Part shown: positions 37,310 through 42,075 of the stretch, in pieces | Numbering within the stretch: the stretch's first letter is position 1 | Layout of the letters: each line of letters opens with the position of its first letter | From: a virus | Virus record (IMG/VR): IMGVR_UViG_3300046011_007628 | Span: 1 to 55,596 of that record | Reading direction: 5' to 3' (one strand) | Length of the DNA: 55,596 nucleotides | Program-made: the position numbers and the translations under genes | Notes under the pieces: generated by a model | Seen by the model: the letters and a program-made list of their open reading frames with translations, nothing else | Told to the model about the DNA's origin: nothing | Database searches by the model: none

Positions 37310-37383
37310 TGGCAGGCCTATAAGGATTCGAACCCTAAACAATGAGGTTGGAGCTCATTATGATACCATTTCACCATAGACCT
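37310..37383 (-). tRNA. tRNA-Trp (CCA anticodon)
   Basis: Cloverleaf on the minus strand: acceptor AGGTCTA/TAGGCCT, anticodon stem ATGAG/CTCAT with loop CTCCAAC (anticodon CCA) and T arm with GGTTCGAATCC. The 3' end carries an encoded GCCA. It is the last tRNA of the cluster. Confidence 0.9.
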
Positions 37384-37389
37384 ATTTGT

Positions 37390-37458
37390 TGCGGTCGCCG
37401 GATTCGAACCGTGACTCGGGCTTATGAGGCCTGAATGTTACCATTACACTACCACCGC
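37390..37458 (-). tRNA. tRNA-Met or tRNA-Ile2 (CAT anticodon)
   Basis: Acceptor GCGGTGG/CGACCGC with one mismatch, short D arm, anticodon loop CTCATAA (CAT) with one A-C mismatch in the stem, and T loop TTCGAAT. CAT could read Met or, if modified, an Ile codon. The CCA end is not encoded. The next tRNA begins 6 bases on. Confidence 0.85.
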
Positions 37459-37465
37459 AATTTTT

Positions 37466-37538
37466 GCTTCTTCGTTCACACCGCTCCTTAGAGACTACAG
37501 TGACTGGTTGTTTATACTAATATATCTACCAAAGAAGC
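37466..37538 (-). ncRNA. Structured RNA of tRNA size, unidentified
   Basis: A 73-base segment between two tRNAs, closed by a 9-bp stem GCTTCTTTG/CGAAGAAGC (one G-U). It has tRNA length and a T after seven paired bases but no T-arm consensus and no clear anticodon arm. It could be a decayed tRNA or a separate small RNA processed with the cluster. Confidence 0.38.
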
Positions 37539-37563
37539 GTTTCTCGATATATTAATATCCGGG

Positions 37564-37636
37564 AGCCACTTGTCGGGATCGAACCAACGACCTACTGATT
37601 ACAAATCAGTTACTCTACCAGCTGAGCTAAAGTGGC
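37564..37636 (-). tRNA. tRNA-Thr (TGT anticodon)
   Basis: Complete cloverleaf on the minus strand: acceptor GCCACTT/AAGTGGC, D arm AGCTCAGCTGGTAGAG, anticodon stem ACTGA/TCAGT with loop TTTGTAA (TGT), T arm GTTGG/CCGAC. The CCA end is not encoded. It is the first tRNA after the cluster promoter. Confidence 0.92.
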
Positions 37637-37783
37637 CAAATCCTAAACAGTGTCTATTGATCAAGTAGTCTTATTTAGGGGTGTCAATTTAGCTTATGCC
37701 TTGGGCTATTCACTTGTTTGACGAAAAGACCACTGAAGTGTGCTGTTCTTACGGGAAGCATCGTGGTACTGCATTGTTATGTT
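37637..37783 (-). other. Leader of the tRNA cluster
   Basis: About 147 bases between the promoter and tRNA-Thr. I see no convincing gene; a 22-codon frame from 37774 has no support. A hairpin with CCTAAA/TTTAGG ends (37642-37679) lies just before the tRNA and may help processing. Confidence 0.4.
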
Positions 37784-38628: not shown

Positions 38629-38738
38629 TAGTCAGGACAGGATTCGAACCTGTATGTTTACTAATTTAGGTAATCAGACGACCAACTCTGAACCACTTAA
38701 CTTTCAACGGCCTACGTCTACCATTCCGCCACCTGACT
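38629..38738 (-). tRNA. tRNA-like element 1, no assignable anticodon
   Basis: 110 bases. Acceptor AGTCAGG/CCTGACT, D arm GCGGAATGGTAGACGT like tRNA-Leu, T arm ACAGG/CCTGT with TTCGAAT, and a long variable arm (TTACCTA ... TAGTAA). The anticodon stem GGCCG/TGGTC closes a 23-base loop containing its own TTGAA/TTCAG hairpin instead of seven bases. Shares both ends with four other elements here. CCA is not encoded. The 3' end of gene 38704-38925 overlaps it. Confidence 0.6.
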
Positions 38739-38925
38739 GTTTTTCAAACACTTTACTAAACTTGGTTTTAGGGTAACATTTAGTATTACCATTAGGTAAT
38801 AAAATTACAACCCAACCAATACCATAAGGTTGTGTATCATAAGCAACAACAAGGTAATCCTTCATATTATGAAGAGTATAATCACATTCAGAAGCATTTT
38901 TACATGTTACATATTTTTGTTTCAT
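38704..38925 (-). CDS. Small protein whose end runs into a tRNA-like element
   Basis: A 73-residue protein (MKQKYVTCKNASECDYTLHN, then IGWVVILLPNGNTKCYPK). The last 12 codons are read from the first 35 bases of tRNA-like element 1, so processing there would cut the message. The body has a beta-rich look with two cysteines. It begins 17 bases after the 3' end of tRNA-like element 2. Function unknown. Confidence 0.58.
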   Translation of the reverse strand: MKQKYVTCKNASECDYTLHNMKDYLVVAYDTQPYGIGWVVILLPNGNTKCYPKTKFSKVFEKQSGGGMVDVGR

Positions 38926-38941
38926 AACTTTTTTATGTTAG

Positions 38942-39068
38942 CAGTCAGGACAGGACTCGAACCTGTACGAACACACGCCCTATTTTAATAACGGTTGTGT
39001 TCTACGTATAGCGTCTACCACGATATTTAGTTGCAACTGCATTATCAATATCTTTTCGCCACCTGACT
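38942..39068 (-). tRNA. tRNA-like element 2, no assignable anticodon
   Basis: 127 bases. Same acceptor (AGTCAGG/CCTGACT) and T arm (ACAGG, TTCGAGT, CCTGT) as the others. The D stem GCG/CGC is kept, but the D loop has about 33 extra bases with GATATT/AATATC pairing. The anticodon stem ATACG/CGTGT closes a 27-base loop. The discriminator is G where the other four have A. CCA is not encoded. Confidence 0.55.
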
Positions 39069-39075
39069 ATATTAT

Positions 39076-39216
39076 TTATTTTATCATTTCAATTACAATG
39101 GATATAATCAATGACCACCCAATTATTCCAAAAAATATATATGGTAATCTGTAATCATCCCATGTTGGTTTTTTGAATAATAAAATAACTTTCAATGCTT
39201 CTTTCATAGTTTTCAT
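39076..39216 (-). CDS. Very small membrane protein
   Basis: 46 residues: MKTMKEALKVILLFKKPTW, then a hydrophobic segment with FFGIIGWSLIISIVIEMI. It fits exactly between tRNA-like elements 2 and 3, starting 7 bases after one 3' end and stopping 7 bases before the other 5' end. The second ATG (39207) is an alternative start. Confidence 0.55.
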   Translation of the reverse strand: MKTMKEALKVILLFKKPTWDDYRLPYIFFGIIGWSLIISIVIEMIK

Positions 39217-39223
39217 ATTTTAG

Positions 39224-39300
39224 TAGTCAGGACAGGATTCGAACCTGTGGCCTCTCAGCAGTTTCCCACCGAGCGAAGTACCAAACTCTTCCACCTGACT
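39224..39300 (-). tRNA. tRNA-like element 3, abnormal anticodon loop
   Basis: 77 bases, the most tRNA-like of the five. Shared acceptor and T arm, D stem GAAG/CTTC, anticodon stem CTCGG/CTGAG with a G-U pair, and a loop TGGGAAACTG of ten bases lacking a T33 in register. GGG is the only plausible anticodon reading, but the geometry is wrong. The promoter just upstream would start the RNA only a few bases before it. Confidence 0.62.
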
Positions 39301-39312
39301 ATATTTTATGTA

Positions 39313-39345
39313 GTAAATATACGTATATCCTTTCATATAGCCAAA
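39313..39345 (-). promoter_or_regulatory. Promoter of tRNA-like cluster 1
   Basis: Minus strand: TTTGG, 19 bases, TATATTTAC. The predicted transcript start is within about 10 bases of tRNA-like element 3. Confidence 0.7.
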
Positions 39346-39665
39346 TTTTTATTAAAGAAATCTTTTTTTGATTTTGCGATTTTTGAGAAAAAATGCCTAT
39401 ATGGAATCAATAATCCAATTATGGCTTATTTGGATTTTGGGATTATGTTTTGTCGCGGTTGGTATATTTGTATATATTTGTCGGCGGGTTATACCTATAT
39501 TCGATCTATAAATTAATCACACTTTTTTTGACATATATGCATACGGTATATGGACAACGGCATGCGTGGGGCTCTACTATTTATGTATACCGTACGGCGT
39601 ACGTACGGCCAACAGATAGACCCCCCCCTCTTTCTAGGGGCCAGAGCCCCAGACCCGCTAGAGAC
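39346..39665. other. Stretch without a gene
   Basis: No open frame on either strand looks real. The left half is AT-rich. From about 39540 it becomes G+C-rich and palindromic (ATACGGTATA at 39541-39550, then CGTACGGCGTACGTACGGCC) and has a GGGGC/GCCCC hairpin near 39637-39651. A TATATTTG box at about 39463 on the plus strand could be promoter-like, but nothing follows it. Confidence 0.45.
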
Positions 39666-39696
39666 AAAAAGGCCGGAACCCATTGGTCCCGGCCTT
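39666..39696 (-). terminator. Strong terminator
   Basis: Minus strand: AAGGCCGGGACC, AATG loop, GGTTCCGGCCTT with one mismatch, then TTTTTG. It ends gene 39721-40098. Confidence 0.85.
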
Positions 39697-39720
39697 CATG
39701 TTTTGTGGGGCGTGATCCTA

Positions 39721-40098
39721 TTATCCGAAAATCACTTCACCGTACATTATGGTCTGAAGGATCACATCTGCTGTTCCTGCATCGTCGGTTTCGTTCTTCA
39801 TTTCTAGTAGGCGCTCTGGATCTACACTGGACATTTTAGTGTGTACATCCTCTAGGGTGATCTGCTTGCTGTACTCTCCATCGCACTCAACATCTTCGAA
39901 CCCGAATGTGTTTCCGTCTCTCAGGATTTGCATCAACACGTCTTCAAAGCATGGGCTTGTGAGTTTTGATTTTGCTTGAGCATAATGGTCTTTGTTGTAA
40001 TTGAATTCTAAGCCGTAGCCATTCATTTCAGATAAACCATTACATAGGGCATTGTAAAAAAATTCTTCGCTTTCTTGTGGTGTTAAAATTATTTGCAT
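39721..40098 (-). CDS. Conserved phage protein of unknown function
   Basis: I use the ATG at 40098; the longer frame reads the promoter as MYVHP. The 125-residue acidic protein holds FFYNALCNGLSEMNGYGLEF and SPCFEDVLMQILRDG, a pattern I recall from gut and marine phages. No function known. Its codons are richer in G and C than the late genes. It lies between its own promoter and a strong terminator. Confidence 0.75.
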   Translation of the reverse strand: MQIILTPQESEEFFYNALCNGLSEMNGYGLEFNYNKDHYAQAKSKLTSPCFEDVLMQILRDGNTFGFEDVECDGEYSKQITLEDVHTKMSSVDPERLLEMKNETDDAGTADVILQTIMYGEVIFG

Positions 40099-40116
40099 AC
40101 TGTTATTTATTATGGG

Positions 40117-40149
40117 GTGAACATACAAATAAAATATTGTGTATCCAAA
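40117..40149 (-). promoter_or_regulatory. Promoter
   Basis: Minus strand: TTTGG, 19 bases, TATGTTCAC, 18 bases before the ATG at 40098. Confidence 0.72.
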
Positions 40150-40155
40150 TATTAT

Positions 40156-40848
40156 TTAGGCATACTCAAACACACCAAAATTAATTAGTCTTAATGCTGT
40201 AGTGGGACCTATATCATCTCCTATTTCACGGCACTCTAGATAGATTTTGGGTTTAGATGGATCAATTCCTGGGGCAAATCCTGTTACAGTATAAACATCA
40301 CCCACATCAATATATGATAATCTGTTACCTCTAGGTTCTACAGCATTAGCTTCTTCAGCAGTATTGAAATAAAGGCTAGGGCTACGAGGATTCTCTGGAT
40401 CGGAAACCCGATACACTTCTTTCTTTACTCGGAGCTTATCTCCTACTTTTAACCTACGTGGGTCTACTTTTATTGGATTACCTATTTTTATCTCCTTTAC
40501 CTCAGACTTTCTAATATGTTTAAATGCTCCTAATCTTGATATTGAGATAATTGTTGCAATTAATATTGTATTACCTACAGAATATGGATCATTACTTTGA
40601 ATACATGTTGCCACTAAAATATTATCTTTTTTTAATTCCCACACATCATCCTTATATGTAAATACCCCATATTCTCCTTGTTGGGGTGTTAATGTTGGTT
40701 TATCTCCTTCTTCATCCCAGTATACTGTTTTAATTACTATCAGTTTATCTCCTGTTTCAAGACGTTTAATATTAACTGTAAGTGGATTATCCACTTTCAT
40801 CTCCTTTATGCCTGCTAGTTCCTGTAGACGTCTAAATTCATCATTCAT
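40156..40848 (-). CDS. Tagged protein with two SH3-like repeats
   Basis: I start at 40848 so that a late motif precedes the ATG at the same distance as in related genes. The 230-residue protein begins MNDEFRRLQELAGIKEMK, the LAGI(K/V)E tag also found at 40874-41173 and 51391-51747. It holds two copies of a module (VDNPLTVNIKRLETGDKL and IGNPIKVDPRRLKVGDKLRV) each followed by a beta-rich stretch that fits a KOW/SH3 barrel. The tag could be a head-targeting signal. Function unknown. Confidence 0.72.
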   Translation of the reverse strand: MNDEFRRLQELAGIKEMKVDNPLTVNIKRLETGDKLIVIKTVYWDEEGDKPTLTPQQGEYGVFTYKDDVWELKKDNILVATCIQSNDPYSVGNTILIATIISISRLGAFKHIRKSEVKEIKIGNPIKVDPRRLKVGDKLRVKKEVYRVSDPENPRSPSLYFNTAEEANAVEPRGNRLSYIDVGDVYTVTGFAPGIDPSKPKIYLECREIGDDIGPTTALRLINFGVFEYA

Positions 40849-40850
40849 AA

Positions 40851-40862
40851 TCATAAATATAG
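40851..40862 (-). promoter_or_regulatory. Late-type motif (variant)
   Basis: Reads CTATATTTATGA on the minus strand, just before the ATG at 40848. Confidence 0.42.
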
Positions 40863-40873
40863 AACCGGATTAA

Positions 40874-41173
40874 CTATTCTTGTACATACCTAAATGCTGC
40901 ATAATCTAGCATTCTTTGAATATGGTAACTGCCCATCATAGTACGTGCCTTTCCTTGACCTTGAACAAAATTTAATTGACCAAACTGGCCAAGACGTTCT
41001 ACTTTCCACACATCACCACTCATAACATATGGAGGATGATCTTTAGTTGCTCGTAGTTTATCCCCTATCTTAAGTTCATCATATGTTGGGATTGGATTTC
41101 TTACTGTTATCTCCTTTATGCCTGCAAGTTTTTGCATGCGTTTAAATTCTTCATTTAATATTTGCTTTTTCAT
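40874..41173 (-). CDS. Tagged single SH3-like module protein
   Basis: A 99-residue protein starting MKKQILNEEFKRMQKLAGIK, then the same module (VRNPIPTYDELKIGDKLRAT) as the gene after it. An ATG at 41179 is also possible, but 41173 matches the spacing to the late motif. It looks like a single-copy relative of gene 40156-40848. Confidence 0.7.
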   Translation of the reverse strand: MKKQILNEEFKRMQKLAGIKEITVRNPIPTYDELKIGDKLRATKDHPPYVMSGDVWKVERLGQFGQLNFVQGQGKARTMMGSYHIQRMLDYAAFRYVQE

Positions 41174-41175
41174 AA

Positions 41176-41187
41176 TCATAAATATTG
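41176..41187 (-). promoter_or_regulatory. Late-type motif (variant)
   Basis: Reads CAATATTTATGA on the minus strand, 2 bases before the ATG at 41173. Confidence 0.42.
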
Positions 41188-41199
41188 TTCGTAATAGAA

Positions 41200-41220
41200 G
41201 GGATGCTCTATGAGCACCCC
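41200..41220 (-). terminator. Hairpin, probable terminator
   Basis: Minus strand: GGGGTGCTC, ATA loop, GAGCATCCC, 9 bp with one G-U. The following T-run is weak. It separates the small early genes from the late gene at 41173. Confidence 0.5.
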
Positions 41221-41241
41221 AACCTTAATAATAAAACAGCA

Positions 41242-41337
41242 CTAAAGATTATTTGTACTTAACAGTGTAATAAACACTATTAATGCAACTGTGAATGTGG
41301 TGATAATCCCCACTTTGATCCTGTCTGTTGGGTTCAT
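41242..41337 (-). CDS. Very small membrane peptide
   Basis: 31 residues: MNPTDRIKVG then a hydrophobic helix IITTFTVALIVFITLL. It lies 10 bases after the previous gene. The size makes it uncertain, but it has the usual start context and a clean membrane segment. Confidence 0.45.
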   Translation of the reverse strand: MNPTDRIKVGIITTFTVALIVFITLLSTNNL

Positions 41338-41347
41338 TGTTATTGAT

Positions 41348-41506
41348 TTATTGTTCATATTGTTTGATTGATTTGAGAGCTACTCCTAAATAAATTGAAA
41401 TAATACACATTAAAAACATCCCCATGATGTCTCTAAATGCTAATAGTACAACAAATGTTATGCTTGTTAATACTAATAATGTTATGACTTTGGTTTTAAT
41501 ATTCAT
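41348..41506 (-). CDS. Small membrane protein
   Basis: 52 residues: MNIKTKVITLLVLTSITFVV, then a second hydrophobic stretch around GMFLMCIISIYLG. It starts 4 bases after the -7 box of its promoter, so the leader is very short. No family known. Confidence 0.52.
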   Translation of the reverse strand: MNIKTKVITLLVLTSITFVVLLAFRDIMGMFLMCIISIYLGVALKSIKQYEQ

Positions 41507-41509
41507 ACT

Positions 41510-41542
41510 GTGAACATACGATTTATGTTTTGTGGTTCCAAA
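41510..41542 (-). promoter_or_regulatory. Promoter
   Basis: Minus strand: TTTGG, 19 bases, TATGTTCAC. The TTTGG begins 4 bases after the 3' end of tRNA-like element 4. Confidence 0.7.
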
Positions 41543-41546
41543 TGAG

Positions 41547-41661
41547 TAGTCAGGACAGGAATCGAACCTGCATTTAATCCACCATGATTAATCATACCTT
41601 ACACATCCATATTTCTATGAATGTTTATCGGTATAGCGTCTACCAATTCCGCCACCTGACT
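41547..41661 (-). tRNA. tRNA-like element 4 (Leu-like) with an extra hairpin
   Basis: 115 bases. Acceptor AGTCAGG/CCTGACT; D arm GCGGAATTGGTAGACGC as in tRNA-Leu; anticodon stem ATACC/GGTAT; variable arm TTAATC/GATTAA; T arm GCAGG/CCTGT with TTCGATT. The anticodon loop has 31 bases and includes a perfect 9-bp hairpin, ACATTCATA/TATGGATGT, capped by GAAA. No 7-base loop can be drawn unless about 24 bases are removed. CCA is not encoded. Confidence 0.65.
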
Positions 41662-41665
41662 ATGT

Positions 41666-41827
41666 TTAAAGAGCTTCGTAATATTCTTTTAGAAAATAGT
41701 TTTTATCCCACTTACCATTGATTTTATCTTTTGTTTTATACTTACCCCAACTCTTACTAAATGTAAATATTGTACCTAATTTCTCTGAACCTGGGTATTG
41801 TTTTATTAATATGTATGCTTCTTTCAT
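41666..41827 (-). CDS. Small protein between two tRNA-like elements
   Basis: 53 residues: MKEAYILIKQYPGSEKLGTI then FTFSKSWGKYK and a charged end. It starts 18 bases after the 3' end of tRNA-like element 5 and stops 4 bases before the 5' end of element 4. No function known. Confidence 0.52.
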   Translation of the reverse strand: MKEAYILIKQYPGSEKLGTIFTFSKSWGKYKTKDKINGKWDKNYFLKEYYEAL

Positions 41828-41844
41828 AACTTTTTTTTATTTAG

Positions 41845-41924
41845 TAGTCAGGACAAGATTTGAACTTGCAATATCGGCTTGATTTTTATGTCTTGCTTCT
41901 GCGCTACCTTTCCGCCACCTGACT
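41845..41924 (-). tRNA. tRNA-like element 5, no anticodon arm
   Basis: 80 bases. Shared acceptor AGTCAGG/CCTGACT and D stem GCG/CGC; T arm GCAAG/CTTGT with TTCAAAT. The 31 bases between the D and T arms (GAAGCAAGACATAAAAATC and on) do not form a proper anticodon stem. CCA is not encoded. It lies 4 bases after the stop of gene 41929-42075. Confidence 0.55.
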
Positions 41925-41928
41925 ATTT

Positions 41929-42075
41929 TTATTTCCCCATATATTCTCTATAAGTCATTATACTTGCAATTACAGCTCCACCCATACAAATAATTCCAAA
42001 TAAATGTTTAGCTACTAACATTACTACAAACATCACCATGGATAAGATTATTATTATTTCTAATTTATTTTTCAT
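41929..42075 (-). CDS. Small membrane protein
   Basis: 48 residues with one long hydrophobic stretch (LEIIIILSMVMFVVMLVAKH) and a second weaker one. It is first in the transcript that also holds elements 5 and 4, and its ATG is 3 bases after the -7 box. Confidence 0.52.
   Translation of the reverse strand: MKNKLEIIIILSMVMFVVMLVAKHLFGIICMGGAVIASIMTYREYMGK

Follow-up and report, generated by a model that had tools for sequence, protein, structure and literature searches.

What are five tRNA-like elements doing among very small genes of a virus? The question is raised by IMG/VR virus record IMGVR_UViG_3300046011_007628, of which the 55,596 bases analyzed are called the window here. An earlier note on this DNA had described five elements with the ends of a transfer RNA (tRNA) but without a readable anticodon, and had proposed that they mark the places where a long transcript is cut into separate small messages. 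Comparison of the window with other viral sequences led to a different answer, which is considered probable: the elements would be members of an extensive family of phage genes that encode non-coding RNAs with a tRNA body, a scaffold that carries exchangeable modules. The elements, numbered by ascending coordinate, are the following.

Element 1: 38629-38738, minus strand; tRNA-like, 109 nucleotides (nt) plus discriminator, with a Leu-type D arm and an extended anticodon region; Rfam tRNA score 37.4 bits.
Element 2: 38942-39068, minus strand; tRNA-like, 126 nt plus discriminator, with an additional D-loop insert at about 39020-39053.
Element 3: 39224-39300, minus strand; tRNA-like, 76 nt plus discriminator, with a 10-nt anticodon-type loop and the pair G15-C48; Rfam tRNA score 47.9 bits.
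Element 4: 41547-41661, minus strand; tRNA-like, 114 nt plus discriminator; Rfam tRNA score 38.5 bits.
Element 5: 41845-41924, minus strand; tRNA-like, 79 nt plus discriminator.

All five were found where the earlier note had placed them. The identical 7-bp acceptor stem that it reported was AGTCAGG/CCTGACT in every element, with 7 of 7 pairs formed in each, and its near-identical T arms were likewise recovered as a 5-bp stem and a T-loop in each of the five. The T stem was ACAGG/CCTGT in elements 1-3, GCAGG/CCTGT in element 4 and GCAAG/CTTGT, with the loop TTCAAAT, in element 5. A canonical anticodon arm was absent from all of them, which agrees with the claim that none has a usable anticodon loop. 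The tertiary pair 15-48 was A-U in elements 1, 2, 4, and 5, and G-C in element 3. When a rule for tRNA shape was applied to the window, seven structures were obtained (the five elements and two canonical tRNAs), whereas 100 Markov surrogates averaged 0.16 and never exceeded 2; the 3' module of the elements occurred five times at three mismatches or fewer, against 0.03 expected. The Rfam gathering score for tRNA was passed by elements 1, 3, and 4, together with the tRNAs for Trp, Met, and Thr of the window, while elements 2 and 5 scored below it. Element 3 was the only one called by ARAGORN, as “tRNA-???”. The same region was present in two more viral contigs, at 99.96% identity over 8,192 nt in L178, which also holds element 2, and at 100% over 3,698 nt in L292 (L numbers denote loci of the collection described below); this recurrence argues against an assembly error.

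The five elements are members of a large family and not a local peculiarity. Viral contigs were scanned with the 23-base 3' module and with three split patterns, each scan yielding at least 120 stretches, and all totals are lower bounds. These four scans, the window and six GTDB contigs made up a set of at least 418 loci (3.77 Mb), to which some contigs contributed more than one locus. At least 726 3' modules were present in the set, 690 of them with a matching 5' acceptor strand; the other 36 were dropped because no 5' partner was found under the rule (contig ends, or a position 8 other than T). At least 579 distinct elements were counted, in at least 406 loci, with lengths of 53-258 nt and a median of 102 nt, and the counts over 579 elements given below refer to this collected set. 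Outside the elements, 1,058 canonical tRNAs were called by ARAGORN in the same loci, and their acceptors were varied in the first 127 loci. The inserts of the window were represented elsewhere too: close relatives of the insert of element 1 were found in L063, L086, and L574, and a relative of that of element 5 in L026.

Within the limits of a strict pattern joining a Leu-type D arm to a long insert, which gave 3/395 and 0/398 in bacterial genomes, the class looks largely viral. A two-ended pattern produced six matches in GTDB contigs, all of them labeled as metagenome-assembled genomes. Among 50,697 records of cultured phages, the best full-length match to the 3' module reached 87%; element 4 had no match there and element 1 only partial ones, and family 1 (one of the insert families below) had just two, both to the T-arm end. 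Loci L507 and L531, which to judge by their IMG record numbers may come from isolate genomes, were also without a near match in the phage set. A conserved partner protein was sought in the first 127 loci, where the largest cluster of open reading frames (ORFs) covered just 18 loci, and the idea was rejected.

The acceptor stem and the T arm are the half of a tRNA that is read by the tRNA-processing enzymes. According to the earlier note, this processing half is conserved in the elements and the adaptor half is variable, and the statement held for the whole family: an anticodon stem of 5 bp, closed by a 7-nt loop with U33 and correctly spaced from the T arm, was present in 10 of the 579 elements, versus 92 of 114 control tRNAs drawn from the first 127 loci. 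As a family, the elements are not decoding tRNAs; the rare ones that have a canonical anticodon arm include a tRNA-Lys(UUU) with the same ends in L018, L049, and L264. In the acceptor stem, the T and D arms, and the interactions of the core, the elements nevertheless match a decoding tRNA. A14 was observed in 512 and the early GG (18-19) in 514 of the 579 elements, U8 having been imposed by the collection filter. In the 468 elements with both A14 and GG, the pair 15-48 was A-U in 377, G-C in 20, A-C in 16, and G-U in 4, a covariation with a Fisher probability of 1e-20, uncorrected for relatedness. The commonest D arm was Leu-like (GCGG, 84/153). Single-step variants of the 5' acceptor strand retained a G.U wobble in 53 cases and disrupted the pairing in 5, which points to pairing in RNA rather than in DNA.

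The flanks of the elements also look processable, like those of canonical tRNAs. U was found at position -1 in 81% of 683 elements and in 64% of 120 canonical tRNAs, and C followed the discriminator in 99% of 158 elements and 100% of 122 canonical tRNAs. No transfer-messenger RNA (tmRNA) was listed by ARAGORN in the window and 30 loci or by Rfam in the window and 14 loci, and no Rfam family other than tRNA reached the gathering score in the latter set. Taken at the level of sequence, these patterns indicate that the acceptor stem, the T arm and the core (A14, pair 15-48, G18G19) have been kept, that the anticodon arm has been replaced and that the D-loop has sometimes been extended.

The inserts replace the anticodon side, extend the D-loop, or do both. 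Those with relatives in the set formed groups, including one loose group of 186 united by a shared D-arm sequence, and three families were followed with motifs taken from the insert. The motif for family 3 leaves the acceptor free (27 distinct contexts; 8 of unrelated DNA excluded), and this family comprised 19 distinct elements, 18 from the motif scan and L479 from a BLAST match. The acceptor was the exact one 15 times, AGTTAGG/CCTGACT once, AGTCAGG/TCTGGCT once, and a wholly different stem twice; the insert was located under AGTGCAG/CTGCACT in the podovirus record MW202828 (L479) and under AACAGAG/CTCTGTT in L607. In an alignment of 17 elements, from which the two with D-loop inserts were excluded, the insert folds into an 8-bp helix beginning one base past the D arm and an inner hairpin. 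Changes on both sides were observed at 9 of its 12 pairs, compared with a mean of 3.1 in shuffled alignments and with none of 500 shuffles reaching 9 (relatedness uncorrected), and at 15 of the 27 pairs of the whole structure. The family 3 insert is clearly a structured RNA.

Family 1, found by an insert-only motif (38 distinct contexts; 12 of unrelated DNA excluded), comprised 21 distinct elements, of which 17 had the exact acceptor, one a wobble, one the compensatory stem AGTCAGA/TCTGACT, and two another stem. Its T stem varied with compensation, and 36 columns were invariant in an alignment of 25 rows that included four relatives obtained via the 3' module. A second insert motif (8 distinct contexts; 1 unrelated excluded) defined family 2, whose seven elements all had AGTCAGG or GGTCAGG as the 5' strand. 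An antisense role of the inserts was also considered and rejected: exact complementary matches of at least 10 nt to their own locus were found for 116 of 200 sampled inserts, and to another locus for 106 of 200.

The D-loop was the second site of variation. A long D-loop insert was assigned by rule to 20 elements, a few of them apparently accidents of parsing. Four D-loop modules were recurrent, and the insert on the anticodon side differed among the occurrences of each: L027/L146/L219, L081/L144, L201/L344/L596, and L065/L177/L379, where the common part is limited to a 9-base core. Conversely, the anticodon-side insert of L219 recurred in L354 without a D-loop insert. Modules have been recombined and reassorted among phages. 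Separately, D-loop inserts of about 70 nt were noticed in L315 and in L089/L417, and that of L315 contains a T-arm-like hairpin, as if one tRNA-like piece were nested inside another.

Exchange between phages was also visible around the elements. Where phages that are not near-identical have flanking DNA in common up to a given site, the homology broke at that site in 844 of 1,456 cases for elements (58%), 727 of 1,871 for canonical tRNAs (39%), and 859 of 4,017 for random 100-nt spots (21%); in these figures the constant ends help alignments to reach into elements, and canonical tRNAs are a partial control only. A stretch homologous to the 46-aa ORF of the window was found in L307 (85% over a 195-nt match), and there too it lies between two elements, but with different inserts. 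Both constant ends that aid recombination and selection for module swapping are compatible with these data. The same two observations favor the view that the elements are in essence recombination joints, that is, that their constant ends are DNA sites, either attC-like or hotspots of homologous exchange, which shuffle small gene cassettes while any RNA role is secondary. This is judged unlikely, since the acceptor variants keep G.U pairs, the pair 15-48 covaries, the family 3 inserts covary as RNA helices, and gaps of less than 140 nt between RNA genes are common.

The proposal of the earlier note, that the purpose of the elements is the cutting of polycistronic phage transcripts into small messages in the way of mitochondrial tRNA punctuation, has to be weighed against the genes and ordinary tRNAs of the window.

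73-aa ORF: 38704-38925, minus strand; its stop codon is within element 1.
46-aa ORF: 39076-39216, minus strand; between elements 3 and 2.
53-aa ORF: 41666-41827, minus strand; between elements 5 and 4.
Canonical tRNA-Trp: 37310-37383, minus strand; detected by ARAGORN and Rfam, with its own acceptor, in contrast to the elements.
Canonical tRNA-Met: 37388-37459, minus strand; detected by ARAGORN and Rfam.
Canonical tRNA-Thr: 37561-37637, minus strand; detected by ARAGORN and Rfam.

Small ORFs do adjoin the elements here. The gaps, described earlier as 4-18 bases, were 4-17 nt in seven cases, but 40 nt upstream of element 4, and the reported overlap of a gene with an element was verified for the 73-aa ORF and element 1. 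Two further findings speak for cutting: the U at -1 and the C after the discriminator fit the maturation of tRNA ends, and ORFs avoid the elements, with an upstream ORF running into 19 of 690 elements, 68 of 1,058 canonical tRNAs, and 1,038 of 2,070 random spots. As a general rule, however, the punctuation of tiny genes did not hold. There were 530 gaps between neighboring RNA genes that involve an element, of which 207 were shorter than 140 nt and just 201 contained an ORF of at least 35 aa (the two counts can overlap); the elements are therefore often arranged in tandem or next to ordinary tRNAs. Although genes respect the elements, these are not as a rule placed between genes. Moreover, the ordinary tRNAs of the same clusters, which at 37310-37637 have acceptors other than AGTCAGG/CCTGACT, would cut too, and cutting requires the tRNA shape alone, so that it leaves both the covarying inserts of family 3 and the recurrent acceptor unexplained. 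A cut in element 1 would also remove the stop codon of the ORF that ends there. The release of small messages may be a by-product of cutting; as the purpose of the elements it seems improbable.

The elements could also be decaying tRNA genes or fragments in phage tRNA clusters whose anticodon arms were lost by neglect. The few elements that are ordinary tRNAs between the same ends, for instance the tRNA-Lys(UUU) genes mentioned above, and the Leu-like commonest D arm are in keeping with this, and phage integration is known to leave tRNA fragments (PMC9897764). Yet the core positions still covary, the inserts are usually longer than the part replaced (median element 102 nt) and some of them form covarying families, the same insert occurs under different acceptors, and both acceptor strands are present, unlike in integration fragments; decay is thus very unlikely. 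The weakest candidate, tRNAs with introns or edited tRNAs that decode once spliced, draws on elements that by eye resemble a Leu anticodon arm with a small loop insert (e.g., L085 and L097) and is highly improbable, given that no more than 20 of 348 non-redundant elements show complementarity at the usual place of the anticodon stem and that Rfam, in the window and 14 loci, reported tRNA alone and no group I intron.

The scaffold with exchangeable modules is the reading retained, and it would operate as follows. The host RNase P and RNase Z would excise the RNA from phage operons, as for the neighboring canonical tRNAs; the RNA would gain CCA and persist as a stable L-shaped body, and this body would present the insert as the working part. 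The insert might bind or decoy a host factor, such as a tRNA-handling or defense protein, a guess made because diversity and reassortment are typical of accessory phage genes. The near-constant ends may also provide short stretches of homology for the exchange of modules and of small genes nearby. A more ambitious version is offered tentatively, its chances being put a little below even: a natural system of modular RNA display, in which a tRNA body matured by the host carries interchangeable effectors at two sites, the ends enable swaps, and each genome holds a set of inhibitors or decoys against its hosts.

Several results weigh against the scaffold reading. The shared acceptor was partly selected, since the four scans required its 3' strand. 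A scan with the D arm alone (at least 120 matches) was free of this requirement; loci already collected were omitted from it, which lowers its count of AGTCAGG, and no 3' end was found for 31 of the matches. At least 80 complete structures were obtained from the new loci, 36 with an anticodon arm of canonical type (4 or more anticodon-stem pairs and a length of no more than 92 nt) and 44 without; these 44 had many acceptors, and the 5' strand AGTCAGG was present in 8 of them. The class is therefore wider than the shared acceptor, with AGTCAGG as one abundant branch. As for the inserts, 204 of the 579 had no relative in the set. In family 1, changes on both sides were observed at 6 of 18 predicted pairs, just one of which is inside the insert. 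The mean stability z-score was -0.60 for inserts (n = 330) and -0.31 for flanking DNA (n = 315), a slight excess that, together with the rarity of anticodon-stem complementarity, suggests that many inserts may be weakly structured.

Similar elements were detected in a 735-kb phage genome, with the acceptor AGTTAAG/CTTAACT, and in crAssphage cr4_1. The latter (L476, about 1440-1526) is a tRNA-like element, unannotated in a complete crAss-like genome, with an apparent 9-nt anticodon-type loop. Two loci from bacterial genomes, L618 and L619 (G179 and G042), contain Leu-type tRNA-like genes that retain the T arm and acceptor and in which the anticodon arm is apparently replaced by one long hairpin. 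Another conserved arrangement, of about 170 nt, adjoins elements in L011, L395, L179, L017, L198, L176, and L418. It is composed of a small hairpin, a free-standing T-arm-like hairpin, and a tRNA-like body (TTGACTATGGTGTAATGGCGCACAGC...TTAGTCA), and it comes after different elements or tRNAs in different phages.

The elements share traits with several known systems. Like tmRNA (SsrA), they combine a tRNA-like acceptor and T arm with other RNA in place of the anticodon part, but they are 53-258 nt long, often number several per locus, and are dissimilar inside. As in mitochondrial tRNA punctuation, tRNA-like structures adjoin genes with tiny gaps, whereas in the phages many short gaps are free of genes, and the elements themselves are not decoding tRNAs. 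Integron attC sites also have conserved ends, a variable middle, and, in places, an alternation with small genes; in the phage elements, the evidence favors RNA pairing, and the ends consist of the acceptor and T arm of a tRNA. A further parallel is an engineered tRNA scaffold, which retains the acceptor stem and both the T and the D arm but carries an inserted RNA in place of the anticodon stem-loop (PMC3753655). That construct relies on host tRNA processing and stability (PMC3753655), both of which we infer for the phage elements; the latter are natural, occur at hundreds of loci, and have the D-loop as a second insertion site as well as reassorting modules.

Members of the class may already have been annotated. 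The cultured Tenacibaculum phage pT24 (L477) has two nearly identical genes annotated as tRNA-Undet, which are candidates: the genomic setting is the same, and their odd anticodon regions were labeled undetermined. In the available text of a theta-ribozyme study, “Undet” phage tRNAs were counted and excluded from the isotype counts, and no family, shared ends, or modules were described (PMC10879173). A search of open-licence papers, without bioRxiv, found no description of the element class in the portions of text retrieved, where the matches for “no anticodon” concerned missing isotypes and not such elements; tRNA was unmentioned in the retrieved portion of a review on phage small RNAs. Rather than ordinary tRNAs or plain cutting marks between genes, the elements look like an unrecognized class of viral RNA.

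The usual view of phage tRNA genes is that they assist with codon usage or replace tRNAs cleaved by host defense. If the elements are made, some of what is counted as viral “tRNA”, perhaps with genes annotated as undetermined among it, would be a separate class of structured non-coding RNA on a tRNA chassis. They would also provide hundreds of natural insert RNAs for tests of their targets and be a natural counterpart of the engineered tRNA scaffold. Should the modules turn out to be working effectors, the principle would be new, a tRNA-like RNA in itself being of a known kind.

Additionally, other parts of the window were inspected. The search of ten window proteins against Pfam returned a RecA/KaiC-like ATPase and a patatin, and nothing else. 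The stretch from element 3 to the next large minus-strand ORF (39301-39720) includes a section rich in palindromes and a hairpin at 39664-39701 with a sub-threshold Rfam match. A noncoding stretch upstream of the tRNA-Thr (37690-37768) is conserved among other phages, at 81% in L251 and L296, and at 71% over a longer piece in L283.

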